From contig NZ_JAUOQT010000001.1 in the NCBI RefSeq assembly GCF_030547245.1, positions 682,001-746,000 of the forward strand: a DNA stretch of 64,000 nucleotides, read 5' to 3'. Origin of the DNA: Oceanihabitans sp. 2_MG-2023. Lineage in GTDB: Bacteria; Bacteroidota; Bacteroidia; Flavobacteriales; Flavobacteriaceae. Shown piece by piece: positions 1-5,835 of the stretch (within the stretch, counting starts at the first letter, position 1; each line of letters begins with the position of its first letter). Below the pieces are notes generated by a model. That model was not told the origin of the DNA and did not search any database. It worked only from the letters and a program-made list of their open reading frames with translations. The position numbers were made by a program, and so were the translations under genes.

Positions 1-1959
1 AAATTAACCAAAGAGGAAGAAGAACAAAAACAATTACAAGAACAAAACGAAACCATTCAAGATTTAGATAAATCTTTAGAAAAGTTCGAAGAACGCGAAA
101 AGGAACTCCGAGAACTTTCTAAAACACAAAAAGAAAAAACAGAACTTAATTTTAATGATAAACGTAAACTGGATAATTTCTTGAAACGCCAAAAAGAGCA
201 AGAAGAGATGATGCAGAGTTTTAATAAAAAACTGAAAGATAATTTAGAGCAATTTCAGCAAGAAAAGAAAGATGACCAATTTAAAGACGATTTAAAAGAG
301 CGTTTAAAAGAAAATGAAGAGCAGCTTAAAAAAGACGAGAAACTGCTGGAGGAGCTTGAGAAATTGAGAGAAAAATTAGACAAAGAAGAATTAAGTGAAA
401 AATTAGAAAAGTTAGCGAAGCAAAATAAAAATCAGAAAAGAAGTTTAGAACAATTACTAGAGCTTACTAAAAAATATTACATAGGAAAGAAATTAGAAAA
501 GTTACAACAAGAATTAGCAAAATTAGCAGAAAAGCAAGAAAAGTTATCTGAGGAAACTCTAGAAAATAATACCAAAGAAAAACAAGATGAAATAAATAAG
601 GAGTTTGAAAAATTTCAAAATGAAATGGATGCGCTTGAAAAAGAAAACCAAGAATTAAAACGTCCGGAAAAAATAGATCGAAATAAAAACGAGGAAGATA
701 ATGTAAAAGAAGATCAACAAGAAGCTTCCGATAAATTAGAAGAAAAAGAACAAAGTCAAGAAGAACAACAAAAACAAAATAGCCAGAATCAAGCAAAGCA
801 AAAACAAAAGCAAGCAGCTCAGAAAATGAAAAAAATGAGCGAACAAATGCAAGCTGCTATGGCGGCTTCTGGAGGAGAACAAATGGCAGAGGACGCCGAA
901 ATGTTGCGTCAAATACTAGACAACTTAGTACTTTTTTCTTTTAACCAAGAAGGATTAATGAACCAGTTTGAAAGTATTGAGGTAAACCATAATAAATACG
1001 CATCTTATTTGCGTAAACAACATAATTTAAGAGAACATTTCTCACATATAGATGATAGTTTATTTGCACTATCGCTTCGTCAACCAAAAATTTCTGAGAA
1101 AGTAAATAAAGAAATTGGAGAAGTGTTTTATAATATTGATAAATCTTTAGTGGAATTTTCTGAAAATCAGATATATAAAGGGGTTTCCAATCAACAATAT
1201 ACCATAACTTCAGCAAATAATTTAGCAGATTTTCTAAGTAACGCATTAGATAATATGCAAATGCAAATGAATGGAGAAGGGCAAGGGGGTAAAGGAAACC
1301 CTAAACCAGGTGAAGGTAAGGGAGGAGATGGCGGACTTCCAGACATAATAAAAAGCCAAGAACAACTTGCAAAAGAAATGCAAGAAGGGATGCAAAAAGG
1401 AAAAGAAGGGGAAGAAGGAAAAGAAGGAGAAACTGGCGAAGGAGATAATGGAAAGGAAGGAAAAACAGGTAAAGAAGGTGATGCTAAAGAGGGGAAGGGT
1501 AAAGAAGGTGGAGATAAGCAAGGTGAAGGAGAAGGTAATAGCGAAGAATTAAATGGAGAGCTATATAGAATTTACCAACAACAACAGCAAATACGTCAAG
1601 CATTGCAAGATAGATTAGCTAAAGAAGGAAAAAATGGTGTTGGTAGTAATCTAGTGAAACAAATGGAACAGATTGAAATGGATCTTTTAAATAAAGGTTT
1701 CACGAATCAAACGATGGAGAAAATGTTAAATTTAAAACATCAATTATTAAAATTAGAACAAGCAACTTTTCAACAAGGTCAAGAAGAAAAGCGTGAATCG
1801 GAAACCAACCAAAAGCAATTTGATAACAAAACAAACAATCAAATTCCAACGGCAAAACAATATTTTAACACTACCGAAATATTAAATAGACAAAGCTTAC
1901 CTTTGCAACCAATTTATAAAAAGAAAGTGCAAGAGTACTTTAAAAAAAACAATGATTAG
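1..1959 (+). CDS. DUF4175-like coiled-coil protein, 5' end outside window
   Basis: The reading frame is open from base 1 to the TAG at 1957-1959, so 652 C-terminal residues are seen and the start lies upstream. The first ~280 visible residues are an almost unbroken Lys/Glu/Gln-rich coiled coil. A more ordinary, conserved-looking block follows (about residues 290-420). Next is a Gly/Lys/Glu low-complexity stretch (about 421-517) and a helical tail. This architecture matches the C-terminal half of Bacteroidota DUF4175 proteins, roughly 1,100 residues long with N-terminal membrane helices, which would lie outside the window. No catalytic motif is visible and the function is unknown. The gene overlaps ybeY by 8 bases, implying translational coupling. 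The family call rests on recognised sequence style, not a search. Confidence 0.75.
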   Translation, partial: KLTKEEEEQKQLQEQNETIQDLDKSLEKFEEREKELRELSKTQKEKTELNFNDKRKLDNFLKRQKEQEEMMQSFNKKLKDNLEQFQQEKKDDQFKDDLKERLKENEEQLKKDEKLLEELEKLREKLDKEELSEKLEKLAKQNKNQKRSLEQLLELTKKYYIGKKLEKLQQELAKLAEKQEKLSEETLENNTKEKQDEINKEFEKFQNEMDALEKENQELKRPEKIDRNKNEEDNVKEDQQEASDKLEEKEQSQEEQQKQNSQNQAKQKQKQAAQKMKKMSEQMQAAMAASGGEQMAEDAEMLRQILDNLVLFSFNQEGLMNQFESIEVNHNKYASYLRKQHNLREHFSHIDDSLFALSLRQPKISEKVNKEIGEVFYNIDKSLVEFSENQIYKGVSNQQYTITSANNLADFLSNALDNMQMQMNGEGQGGKGNPKPGEGKGGDGGLPDIIKSQEQLAKEMQEGMQKGKEGEEGKEGETGEGDNGKEGKTGKEGDAKEGKGKEGGDKQGEGEGNSEELNGELYRIYQQQQQIRQALQDRLAKEGKNGVGSNLVKQMEQIEMDLLNKGFTNQTMEKMLNLKHQLLKLEQATFQQGQEEKRESETNQKQFDNKTNNQIPTAKQYFNTTEILNRQSLPLQPIYKKKVQEYFKKNND

Positions 1960-2368
1960 TTTTAATTACGAGAACGATTTTATATTAGAAAATGAAACAA
2001 AATTAGCTACATGGATATCTAGCGTAATAGTTTCAGAAGACTGTAAAGAAGATGAAATAAATTACATTTTTTGTGATGATGCTTACTTGCATAAATTAAA
2101 TGTTGAATTTTTAAATCATGATACTTTAACAGATATCATTAGTTTTGATTATTCAGTAGGTAAAATCTTACAGGGTGATATTTTTATTTCAACAGAAAGA
2201 GTAATAGATAATGCATCCGATTTCAAGGTTTCTTTTACTGAAGAATTACAAAGGGTTCTTGTTCATGGTATTTTGCATTACTGTGGTTATAAAGATAAAA
2301 CAGAAGAAGAAGCAAAAAAGATGCGTAGCAAGGAAAACTTCTACTTAAAACAACTTGAACGTATTTAG
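1952..2368 (+). CDS. ybeY: Endoribonuclease YbeY (rRNA maturation factor)
   Basis: YbeY is a metal-dependent endoribonuclease used in 16S rRNA 3' end maturation and 70S ribosome quality control. The 138-residue length fits the family. The UPF0054 signature is at residues 105-115 (HGILHYCGYKD), giving H105 and H109 as metal ligands. The position of the third ligand, His in E. coli (HGxLHLxGYDH), is Asp115 here. Asp or other replacements are, to my knowledge, common in Bacteroidota YbeY. The ATG lies inside the end of the preceding gene (8-base overlap). After it comes the mnmG promoter and a parS-like site. Confidence 0.93.
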   Translation: MISFNYENDFILENETKLATWISSVIVSEDCKEDEINYIFCDDAYLHKLNVEFLNHDTLTDIISFDYSVGKILQGDIFISTERVIDNASDFKVSFTEELQRVLVHGILHYCGYKDKTEEEAKKMRSKENFYLKQLERI

Positions 2369-2414: not shown

Positions 2415-2430
2415 TGTTCCACGTGGAACA
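2415..2430. other. parS-like ParB binding site 1
   Basis: TGTTCCACGTGGAACA is a perfect 16-base palindrome. It differs only in the symmetric C/G pair from the classical parS consensus TGTTTCACGTGAAACA. It sits between ybeY and mnmG, and an identical copy follows mnmG at 4353-4368. The match to parS is direct; binding by ParB is inferred, since no parAB genes are in the window. Confidence 0.85.
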
Positions 2431-2472
2431 ATTTTTATTTCAAACGAAGAACATATTTAAACTTATAATTAC

Positions 2473-4344
2473 ATGTTTAACGAGTTATATGATGTTATAG
2501 TTGTTGGAGCTGGTCACGCAGGAAGTGAAGCAGCAGCAGCAGCAGCAAACATGGGAAGCAAAACCTTGCTTATTACCATGAACCTACAAAATATTGCACA
2601 AATGTCTTGTAATCCTGCTATGGGAGGAATTGCAAAAGGTCAAATTGTACGAGAAATTGATGCTCTTGGTGGTTACAGTGGTATTGTTAGTGATACTTCT
2701 GCTATTCAGTTTAAAATGCTAAATAAATCTAAAGGACCTGCAATGTGGAGTCCAAGAGTACAAAGTGACAGAATGCGTTTTGCAGAAGATTGGAGACTTC
2801 TTTTAGAACAAACGAAGAACTTAGATTTTTACCAAGAAATGGTTTCTGGTTTATTAGTTGAAAATGATAAAGTAGTTGGTGTACAAACTTCTTTGGGAGT
2901 AAAAGTAAAAGGTAAATCTGTAGTGTTAACCAATGGAACTTTTTTAAACGGATTAATTCATATAGGAGATAAGAATTTTGGAGGTGGAAGAGCTGGTGAA
3001 AAAGCAGCAACTGGTATTACAGAGCAATTGGTGGAATTAGGTTTCGAATCTGGAAGAATGAAAACAGGAACACCTCCAAGAGTAGATGGTCGATCTTTAG
3101 ATTTTTCAAAAATGGTAGAACAACCAGGAGATTTAAATCCTGAGAAATTCTCTTATTTAGATATTACAAAGCCGTTGACTAATCAACGTTCTTGTCACAT
3201 GTCTTATACAAGTGAAAAAGTACATGATCTTCTTCGTGAAGGTTTCGATCGCTCACCAATGTTTAATGGAAGAATTAAAAGTTTAGGGCCTAGATATTGT
3301 CCGTCCATCGAAGACAAAATAAATCGCTTTGCAGATAAAGATAGACATCAATTATTTGTTGAACCAGAAGGTTGGAATACTGTTGAATATTATATTAATG
3401 GGTTTTCTACTTCATTGCCAGAAGATGTTCAGTTTAAGGCATTGCGTTCAGTTGTCGGATTTGAAAATGTTAAGTTTTTCAGACCCGGTTATGCGATTGA
3501 ATACGATTATTTTCCACCTACACAATTAAAGCATACTTTAGAAACAAAGTTGGTAGAAGGACTATATTTTGCCGGTCAAATTAATGGAACAACTGGTTAT
3601 GAAGAAGCCGCATCTCAAGGTTTAATGGCTGGAATAAATGCTAGTTTAAAAGTTAGTGAAAAAGATCCTTTTACCTTAAAAAGAGATGAAGCATATATAG
3701 GTGTTTTGATAGATGATTTAATAACAAAAGGAACAGAAGAGCCTTATAGAATGTTTACTTCTCGAGCAGAATATAGAACTTTATTACGTCAAGATAATGC
3801 AGATTTAAGATTAACACCTAAAGGATTTGAACTGGGTTTGGCTAGTGAAAAACGTTTAAAGCGTATGGAAGAAAAACATGAAGAAGCTGAAAAGTTTGTT
3901 CAATTTTTTAGAACCACTAGTGTGCAACCAAAAGAAGCTAATCCAGTTTTAGAATCAAAAAACTCTGCTCTTGTGAAACAATCAGATAAGATGTTTAAGC
4001 TTTTTTCTAGACCTAATATTACTATAGAAGATGTTAGGAAATTTGATGCAGTTGAGAATTATATTCAAGACAATAATTTAGATAATGAAATAATTGAGCA
4101 GACCGAAATTCAAGTCAAATATTCTGGATATATAGCCAAAGAAAAACTAAACGCAGATAAATTAAATAGGTTAGAGTATGTAAAAATCCCTGACAATTTT
4201 GATTACTCTCAAATTAAATCTATGAGCTTAGAAGCTAGAGAAAAACTTAAAAACATTCAACCAACGTCGATAGCTCAGGCATCTAGAATAAGTGGTGTTT
4301 CACCAAATGATATTTCCGTTTTGTTGGTATATATGGGAAGATAG
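2473..4344 (+). CDS. mnmG: tRNA U34 carboxymethylaminomethyl-modifying enzyme MnmG (GidA)
   Basis: MnmG works with the GTPase MnmE to install the cmnm5 group on U34 of certain tRNAs, using FAD and a methylene-folate donor. The 623 residues match the family length. An N-terminal dinucleotide-binding motif GAGHAGSEAA is at about residues 12-21, followed by the family signature CNPAMGGIAKG (about 46-56). Also present are GGRAGEKAATG, RYCPSIEDK and EPYRMFTSRAEYR, and the C-terminal helical domain that contacts MnmE and tRNA. The ATG is preceded by a short AT-rich leader. The gene is bracketed by two parS-like palindromes. In many bacteria gidA lies close to the replication origin, so the pairing fits an origin-proximal location. 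Confidence 0.97.
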   Translation: MFNELYDVIVVGAGHAGSEAAAAAANMGSKTLLITMNLQNIAQMSCNPAMGGIAKGQIVREIDALGGYSGIVSDTSAIQFKMLNKSKGPAMWSPRVQSDRMRFAEDWRLLLEQTKNLDFYQEMVSGLLVENDKVVGVQTSLGVKVKGKSVVLTNGTFLNGLIHIGDKNFGGGRAGEKAATGITEQLVELGFESGRMKTGTPPRVDGRSLDFSKMVEQPGDLNPEKFSYLDITKPLTNQRSCHMSYTSEKVHDLLREGFDRSPMFNGRIKSLGPRYCPSIEDKINRFADKDRHQLFVEPEGWNTVEYYINGFSTSLPEDVQFKALRSVVGFENVKFFRPGYAIEYDYFPPTQLKHTLETKLVEGLYFAGQINGTTGYEEAASQGLMAGINASLKVSEKDPFTLKRDEAYIGVLIDDLITKGTEEPYRMFTSRAEYRTLLRQDNADLRLTPKGFELGLASEKRLKRMEEKHEEAEKFVQFFRTTSVQPKEANPVLESKNSALVKQSDKMFKLFSRPNITIEDVRKFDAVENYIQDNNLDNEIIEQTEIQVKYSGYIAKEKLNADKLNRLEYVKIPDNFDYSQIKSMSLEAREKLKNIQPTSIAQASRISGVSPNDISVLLVYMGR

Positions 4345-4352
4345 TTTTAAAG

Positions 4353-4368
4353 TGTTCCACGTGGAACA
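4353..4368. other. parS-like ParB binding site 2
   Basis: TGTTCCACGTGGAACA is identical to the site at 2415-2430, including the four preceding bases AAAG. It lies 8 bases after the mnmG stop codon. Two exact copies of a 16-base palindrome within 2 kb, both intergenic, argue strongly against chance. It is interpreted as a ParB-binding centromere site. Confidence 0.85.
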
Positions 4369-4417: not shown

Positions 4418-4906
4418 ATGAAATTACGAGTATTATTTGTTTTGTGTACAACATTATTTGTTTCATGTATTCCTGTAAAAAATGTTCAAGACATAAATGG
4501 ATATCATATTATTGAGGGAAATAAAAAAGTTGGCAAAGACCTAAAAAGTCAAAATGTTTTTAGTTTTCAAATTTATAAAGACAGGCGTTTTTTCGATAGG
4601 TATTTGTACGAACGTTTTCATGATGTTCCTGGTTTTTCCTCCTCTGAATTTAATGTAGAAATTGAAGATGTACCGTTTACAATTCGAATATTAAGCAAAG
4701 AAGAAACAAGTACATATTTAGATTTTACTGATTATATATTTAAAAATGACGATCCCGAATTAGTTAAAAACGGAAAGAAAAAGCAATTCATTTATATGGT
4801 TGTAAAAGATGAAAACAATCAAGATGCTTTAAGTACAGATTCTTTTTATAGATATATTGTAGCAAAATATTTAGACGAAATTAGAATGGATTTTAAAGCT
4901 TATTAA
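4418..4906 (+). CDS. Hypothetical lipoprotein
   Basis: A 162-residue protein with an N-terminal lipoprotein signal: MKLR, a hydrophobic core, then a lipobox ending LFVSC with Cys17. It is therefore probably exported and lipid-anchored. No known domain is recognised. The mature part is rich in charged and aromatic residues. An in-frame upstream ATG at 4292 exists, but it would place 42 residues over the mnmG tail and the parS site and bury the signal peptide, so 4418 is chosen. It lies downstream of parS and 77 bases before a methyltransferase gene. The function is unknown. Confidence 0.75.
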   Translation: MKLRVLFVLCTTLFVSCIPVKNVQDINGYHIIEGNKKVGKDLKSQNVFSFQIYKDRRFFDRYLYERFHDVPGFSSSEFNVEIEDVPFTIRILSKEETSTYLDFTDYIFKNDDPELVKNGKKKQFIYMVVKDENNQDALSTDSFYRYIVAKYLDEIRMDFKAY

Positions 4907-4983: not shown

Positions 4984-5835
4984 ATGAAAGAAAACCGTAT
5001 CCATTTAAAAGTAAAAGATCATTCTGTTTCTGGAGAAACATTTGAATTAATAGAAAATCCAATATTTGGTTTTTTAGAAACGAGTCCACAACCTAAAGCA
5101 GAAAAACTTTCCGAATATTATAAAACGGAAGATTATATTTCGCACACGGATGCGAAAAGAAATATACTTGAAAAAGTATATCATCTTGTTAGAAGTATTT
5201 CTTTAAAACGAAAATTGAAACTTATTAATTCTTTTTCCTTTGAAGAAAAAAAACTTTTAGACATTGGGTGTGGTACAGGAGATTTTTTACAAGTTTCCAA
5301 ACAAAATAATTGGCAAGTTTCTGGTATAGAACCAAACCAACAAGCAAGAGAAATAGCAAATAAGAAAACAGAAAATAATGTTTTTGAAATAGAACAATTA
5401 CAAAAATTTAAAAAGCATAGCTTTAATGTAATTACACTTTGGCATGTTCTAGAGCATTTACCAAATTTAGAAAATCAGATTTCTATTTTTAAAAGCTTAC
5501 TTAAAAAAAACGGAGTTTTAATAGTAGCTGTACCTAATTATAAAAGTTATGATGCAAAACATTATAAAAATTTTTGGGCAGCCTTAGATGTACCAAGACA
5601 CCTTTGGCACTTTAATCAAGATTCTATTGTTTCTCTTTTTGCGAAAGAAAATATGAAAGTGATAAAAATACTTCCTATGCAATTTGATGCGTATTATGTG
5701 AGCTTACTTTCCGAAAAATACAAATCTGGTTTTATGAATCCGATTAAAGCTTTTTGGATTGGTTTTCTTTCCAATCGCAAAGCGAAACGCTCTAAAGAGT
5801 ATTCTTCCTTAATTTATGTAATTAAAAACGGTTAA
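4984..5835 (+). CDS. Class I SAM-dependent methyltransferase
   Basis: A 283-residue protein with the SAM-binding motif I LLDIGCGTGDF at about residues 92-102. The acidic motif II region (SGIEPN) and the post-motif WHVLEHLPN are typical of the Methyltransf_23/UbiG-like fold. The N-terminal ~80 residues precede the SAM domain and resemble the part of the family that follows an unseen zinc-finger region. The substrate cannot be read from sequence; related Bacteroidota proteins are often linked to glycan or lipid methylation. It stands alone between a lipoprotein gene and ompH, with about 200 bases of AT-rich non-coding DNA after it. Confidence 0.88.
   Translation: MKENRIHLKVKDHSVSGETFELIENPIFGFLETSPQPKAEKLSEYYKTEDYISHTDAKRNILEKVYHLVRSISLKRKLKLINSFSFEEKKLLDIGCGTGDFLQVSKQNNWQVSGIEPNQQAREIANKKTENNVFEIEQLQKFKKHSFNVITLWHVLEHLPNLENQISIFKSLLKKNGVLIVAVPNYKSYDAKHYKNFWAALDVPRHLWHFNQDSIVSLFAKENMKVIKILPMQFDAYYVSLLSEKYKSGFMNPIKAFWIGFLSNRKAKRSKEYSSLIYVIKNG

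Follow-up and report, generated by a model that had tools for sequence, protein, structure and literature searches.

Putative parS sites at both edges of mnmG in an Oceanihabitans chromosome and their recurrence across the Bacteroidota

Introduction

Why should a tRNA-modification gene carry the same 16-bp palindrome at each of its edges? In the window considered here, that is, the whole 64-kb stretch of Oceanihabitans sp. 2_MG-2023 DNA that was analysed, two identical copies of TGTTCCACGTGGAACA stand on either side of mnmG. In ParABS systems, ParB dimers bind a palindrome by their HTH domain and then close into CTP-bound sliding clamps, and an earlier note on this DNA had read the pair as parS variants of an origin-proximal partition region. 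On the sequence evidence assembled below, both palindromes are very probably chromosomal parS sites, one per mnmG edge, located in the origin region.

The Locus and Its Two Palindromes

The features of the locus are collected in Table 1. The two copies are exact, are both intergenic and occupy the positions that the earlier note had assigned to them, with a start-to-start distance of 1938 bp. Copy 1 lies 46 bp downstream of the end of ybeY (2368) and 42 bp upstream of the mnmG start; copy 2 follows the mnmG stop codon and precedes a reading frame whose ATG is at 4418. No further match to TGTTCCACGTGGAACA at up to three mismatches is present elsewhere in the 64-kb window, for which shuffled sequences predict 0.09.

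Table 1. Coordinates, in the window, of the putative parS copies and of the surrounding genes
Feature	Position	Strand	Basis or placement
parS copy 1 (putative), TGTTCCACGTGGAACA	2415..2430	.	between ybeY and mnmG
parS copy 2 (putative), TGTTCCACGTGGAACA	4353..4368	.	8 bp past mnmG stop codon
ybeY, rRNA maturation RNase, upstream neighbour	1952..2368	+	TIGR00043, 109 bits, cut-off 45
mnmG (gidA), tRNA uridine-5-carboxymethylaminomethyl(34) synthesis enzyme, bracketed gene	2473..4344	+	TIGR00136, 849 bits, cut-off 524.85
Lipoprotein-like ORF, 162 aa, after parS copy 2	4418..4906	+	no NCBIfam or Pfam match
SAM-dependent methyltransferase	4984..5835	+	PF13489

The genome-wide scan that the earlier note had proposed was run on the draft assembly (3,686,163 bases in 30 contigs, 99.96% complete) and returned two exact copies at a single place. 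No further site differs from them at a single position, 2 differ at two positions and 11 at three. The reversed pattern, used as a control, gave no exact match and 13 matches at up to three mismatches, against 15 for TGTTCCACGTGGAACA; the weak matches are therefore attributable to chance, and the exact pair alone rises above the control. As expected of parS, the element is a 16-bp palindrome of the parS consensus whose few copies are confined to one place rather than spread over the genome.

Among the neighbours, the lipoprotein-like frame recurs in two loci of the same genus (L031 and L034), and in relatives mnmG is often followed directly by the methyltransferase gene, which adjoins the site in those loci that show this side. 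Upstream of ybeY, an open-ended reading frame rich in Glu, Lys and Gln (window 1-1959) yields no NCBIfam or Pfam match; related frames nevertheless occupy the equivalent position in G020 and G027, two of the complete genomes discussed below.

Probable Identity as parS and the ParA-ParB Pair

The earlier note had described the 16-mer as a parS variant with a symmetric change from the classical consensus, and the 16-mer proves to be a known parS form in itself. The same 16-mer constitutes parS2 and parS3 of Pseudomonas aeruginosa, which have the highest ParB affinity among the sites there, according to the accessible part of that study (PMC4368675). Similarly, the table of a review, as far as it is accessible, gives an identical 16-mer for P. 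putida and, for M. xanthus, a parS that differs from TGTTCCACGTGGAACA by G as the last base (PMC7022226).

The earlier note had also seen no parAB, which is correct for the window but not for the genome, since one intact parA-parB operon is located on another contig (C29). It contains the single ParB match of the genome, a protein with ParB_N and HTH_ParB domains that is clearly similar to solved ParB chains; the genome encodes both ParA and a ParB with the N-terminal and the HTH domain. Across genomes, 47 of the 48 tested have a ParB; the exception, a 0.3-Mb genome (G051), lacks both ParB and a site beside mnmG, as would be expected if ParB and site go together.

Conservation beside mnmG

Exact copies of the 16-mer occur in 31 of 60 genomes (the own genome included), at most two in each, and the reversed control is absent from all 60. 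Loci with an exact site were fetched from 29 of the 30 matching relatives, and 28 of the 29 lie beside mnmG. The exception, G029 (C1:997-999 kb; L175, L021), has three core sites near the methyltransferase gene, the usual downstream neighbour of mnmG, and a reading of the surrounding 40 kb revealed no mnmG. The core GTTYCACGTGRAAC was then searched as the conserved part of the palindrome, again with the reversed pattern as control. In a set of 30 genomes (23 of the 29 without the exact 16-mer and 7 with one copy), mnmG was found in 29, and, as counted from the listing, the core lies within 1.5 kb of it on both sides in 20, upstream only in 4, downstream only in 2 and on neither side in 3.

The same arrangement prevails among named relatives, for which 590 loci were confirmed and the best 80 analysed: within the flank available, the core lies on both sides of mnmG in 67, upstream only in 9, downstream only in 3 and on neither side in one, a Capnocytophaga MAG. 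Upstream and downstream cores are accordingly present in 76 and 70 of these best 80 of 590 loci, respectively, none contains a core inside mnmG, and the reversed control scores 0. In some of the one-sided loci, those of Tenacibaculum and Polaribacter among them, the opposite flank of mnmG holds a core with one mismatch. AAAG precedes both copies in the window, as had been pointed out; because it stands ahead of only 3 of the 188 core sites in the 80 named relatives, this prefix is incidental and unconserved.

Tandem arrays of parS cores were observed upstream of mnmG in Flavobacterium, with cores ~40-90 bp apart (seven in L237, six in L238 and seven in L242); L237 additionally carries four ACATG-centred versions ~117 bp apart. 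In G262, eight cores fall within ~450 bp, with one more ~2 kb further on.

A palindrome between genes could instead be an intrinsic terminator or mRNA hairpin ending the ybeY and mnmG transcripts, its DNA being kept for the sake of an RNA stem. A terminator scan does pick up both sites (11 sites in 8 kb versus 3.3 expected), and both fold slightly better than shuffled sequences, with z of -1.97 and -1.48. Against the hairpin stands the variable pair of the palindrome, which, read on the mnmG strand in 188 core sites, is C-A (no pair) in 44 and T-G in 23; the core is kept whereas the pairing is not, which is the opposite of a stem maintained by compensatory changes. Moreover, in two of the C-A examples folding does not improve on that of shuffled sequences (z 0.38 and 1.38), and the Flavobacterium arrays upstream of mnmG make no sense as terminators. 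The hairpin reading is thus highly improbable.

In the phylum at large, the core is present in 363 of 395 Bacteroidota genomes, mostly twice, as compared with chance occurrence of the reversed control in ~19 of the 395 (hand count). Loci from the same class have mnmG within 1.5 kb of the core in 23 of 30 cases and lack it there in 7, and a sample from outside the class (30 core-holding genomes of 28 families) has it in 21 and lacks it in 9; the link between core and mnmG is therefore common in the phylum and not universal.

These counts also bear on whether the palindromes are operators of an mnmG regulator, either ParB-like (e.g., Noc-like) or unrelated, and no part of a centromere. Core sites hug the gene, often 10-60 bp from its ends, and the ParB of contig C29 scores 241 bits against the nucleoid occlusion model TIGR04285, although this is below the cut-off of 315. 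Yet the 16-mer is a known parS sequence and no new operator, a position downstream of a stop codon is odd for an operator, and core sites exist with no mnmG close by, in the 7 same-class and 9 outside-class loci as well as in G029, which makes control of mnmG less likely. Regulation of this kind is considered very unlikely, and parS remains the favoured identity. A stricter rule, by which the core would be present wherever ParB is present, was tried and fails: all 32 of the core-less phylum genomes tested have ParB over the cut-off, so a genome can possess ParB without this core, and such genomes may use diverged sites.

Position Relative to the Replication Origin

The proposal that the pair marks an origin-proximal region is supported by strand composition in complete relatives. 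Skew was computed in 10-kb pieces taken every 200 kb along three single-contig relatives (G001, G020 and G027) and fitted with two segments; at a resolution of ~100 kb, the minus-to-plus switch falls 28 kb from the sites in G027 by both measures, 63 or 137 kb in G020 and 141 or 59 kb in G001, that is, within 28-141 kb. By comparison, the distance from the fitted switch to dnaA is 0.79-1.95 Mb in these genomes, so that a record opening with dnaA does not begin at the origin.

Finer stretches around the sites, 304 kb of the own contig and 200 kb in each of two relatives, place the cumulative skew minima within the stretches read at -44 kb in G020 and +66 kb in G027. In the own contig, the change is gradual, with the minimum at -49 kb from the first site in the 304 kb read. 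Fourfold-site skew near the sites is noisy, as is the skew of a fourth complete genome, G029, whose sites are not beside mnmG.

Gene order, which is flipped about this region between genera, agrees with this placement. Outside the central 15 kb, both side and strand are exchanged in 43 of 44 orthologue pairs with G027 and in 37 of 65 with G020; the remaining pairs keep side and strand (1 in G027 and 24 in G020) or change side unflipped (4 in G020), and no pair changes strand while keeping its side. The median inversion axis is at -4.9 kb from the first site in G020 and at +5.7 kb in G027. Inversions symmetric about an origin would produce such an order, although the use of windows centred on the sites favours an axis there.

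DnaA boxes (TTWTNCACA) do not single out the locus: at most two occur per 500 bp in the 304, 200 and 200 kb around the sites, none of the best stretches is beside mnmG, and the nearest pair of boxes is ~5.2 kb from the first site. Outside the window, ~23 kb upstream of the first site, an AT-rich 801-bp gap with one exact DnaA box (G000:C1:660858-661659) sits upstream of a 731-aa reading frame and was considered as a possible oriC; no exact DnaA box is present in the equivalent gaps of G020 and G027. In two other Flavobacteriaceae, Mariniflexile litorale and Algorimicrobium bowmanii, the origin has been predicted at or next to mnmG in agreement with GC skew, according to the accessible text of the two reports (PMC11278836, PMC12843772); a figure legend in the Mariniflexile paper marks mnmG as ter, contradicting that paper's own text (PMC11278836).

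Proposed Mechanism and the Question of SMC

By analogy with ParABS systems in general, ParB dimers would recognise each palindrome via the HTH domain, and CTP-bound ParB clamps would then slide over mnmG and its neighbours. After the origin region has been copied, ParA would separate the ParB-DNA complexes.

Loading of SMC at the sites is doubtful, because canonical SMC (TIGR02168) exceeds the cut-off in none of eight genomes of the order Flavobacteriales, the own genome included. A full-length SMC exceeds it in all four of the other Bacteroidota tested, and the own genome's best SMC_N matches are RecN and RecF; judged by TIGR02168, the SMC of the SMC-ScpAB complex that SMC-loading parS sites would serve was not found. 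ParA-driven segregation is therefore more likely to be the main use of the sites here than SMC loading. A Hi-C study, in its accessible part, describes two gut Bacteroidetes without known condensin (PMC10197239).

The sites might also be relics of an ancestral cluster of mnmG, parAB and the origin that no longer load ParB. Such decay would fit the missing canonical SMC in the eight genomes of the order and the great distance of parAB and dnaA from mnmG in complete relatives, where the sites and parAB are separated by ~1 Mb or more, as seen in G001, G020, G027 and G029 (0.9-1.3 Mb by positions). The core is nevertheless kept over great divergence, the pair brackets mnmG in most relatives, and ParB is lacking in only one of the genomes tested, the 0.3-Mb one that also lacks the site beside mnmG. 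Loss of function is hence barely credible, and working parS sites remain the preferred reading.

Significance and Comparison with Known Systems

The kind of site, the sequence of the 16-mer and a predicted origin at mnmG are already known. The less expected part is the long-kept attachment of parS-type sites to mnmG across many related bacteria; no report of parS bracketing mnmG in Bacteroidota was found in the literature searched, a scope outside which most subscription papers fall. In practical terms, GTTYCACGTGRAAC beside mnmG offers a marker of the origin region, readable from sequence alone, for a phylum in which dnaA can be a misleading guide. The putative centromere of two sites, in bacteria for which no canonical SMC was found, is likewise a chance to ask what ParB-parS does alone, and the lasting association of a tRNA-modification gene with the centromere calls for explanation. 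One speculative reading, rather unlikely as a whole, would be that the Bacteroidota centromere was tied early to mnmG while parAB and dnaA wandered, that the minimal centromere of Flavobacteriales works without canonical SMC, and that mnmG is perhaps no mere passenger, in that ParB loading, and with it origin copy number and segregation, would be coupled to its expression.

The comparison with known systems is closest for P. aeruginosa, where parS2 and parS3 are not only the identical 16-mer but also perfect palindromes close to the origin (PMC4368675). In the accessible part of that account, P. aeruginosa has ten parS sites and parAB ~7 kb from oriC (PMC4368675), whereas the present genome has two exact sites and carries parAB on a different contig. 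The oriC predictions for Mariniflexile and Algorimicrobium describe no parS in their accessible text (PMC11278836, PMC12843772), and the work on gut bacteria, which relied on GC skew and on a consensus that tolerated two mismatches, leaves mnmG unmentioned in the part available (PMC10197239). That work does report, for Bacteroides caecimuris and other gut bacteria, that parS clusters mark the origin and that dnaA does not always do so (PMC10197239), as in the present case; similarly, dnaA lies away from the skew switch in Mariniflexile (PMC11278836), just as it does in the relatives studied here.
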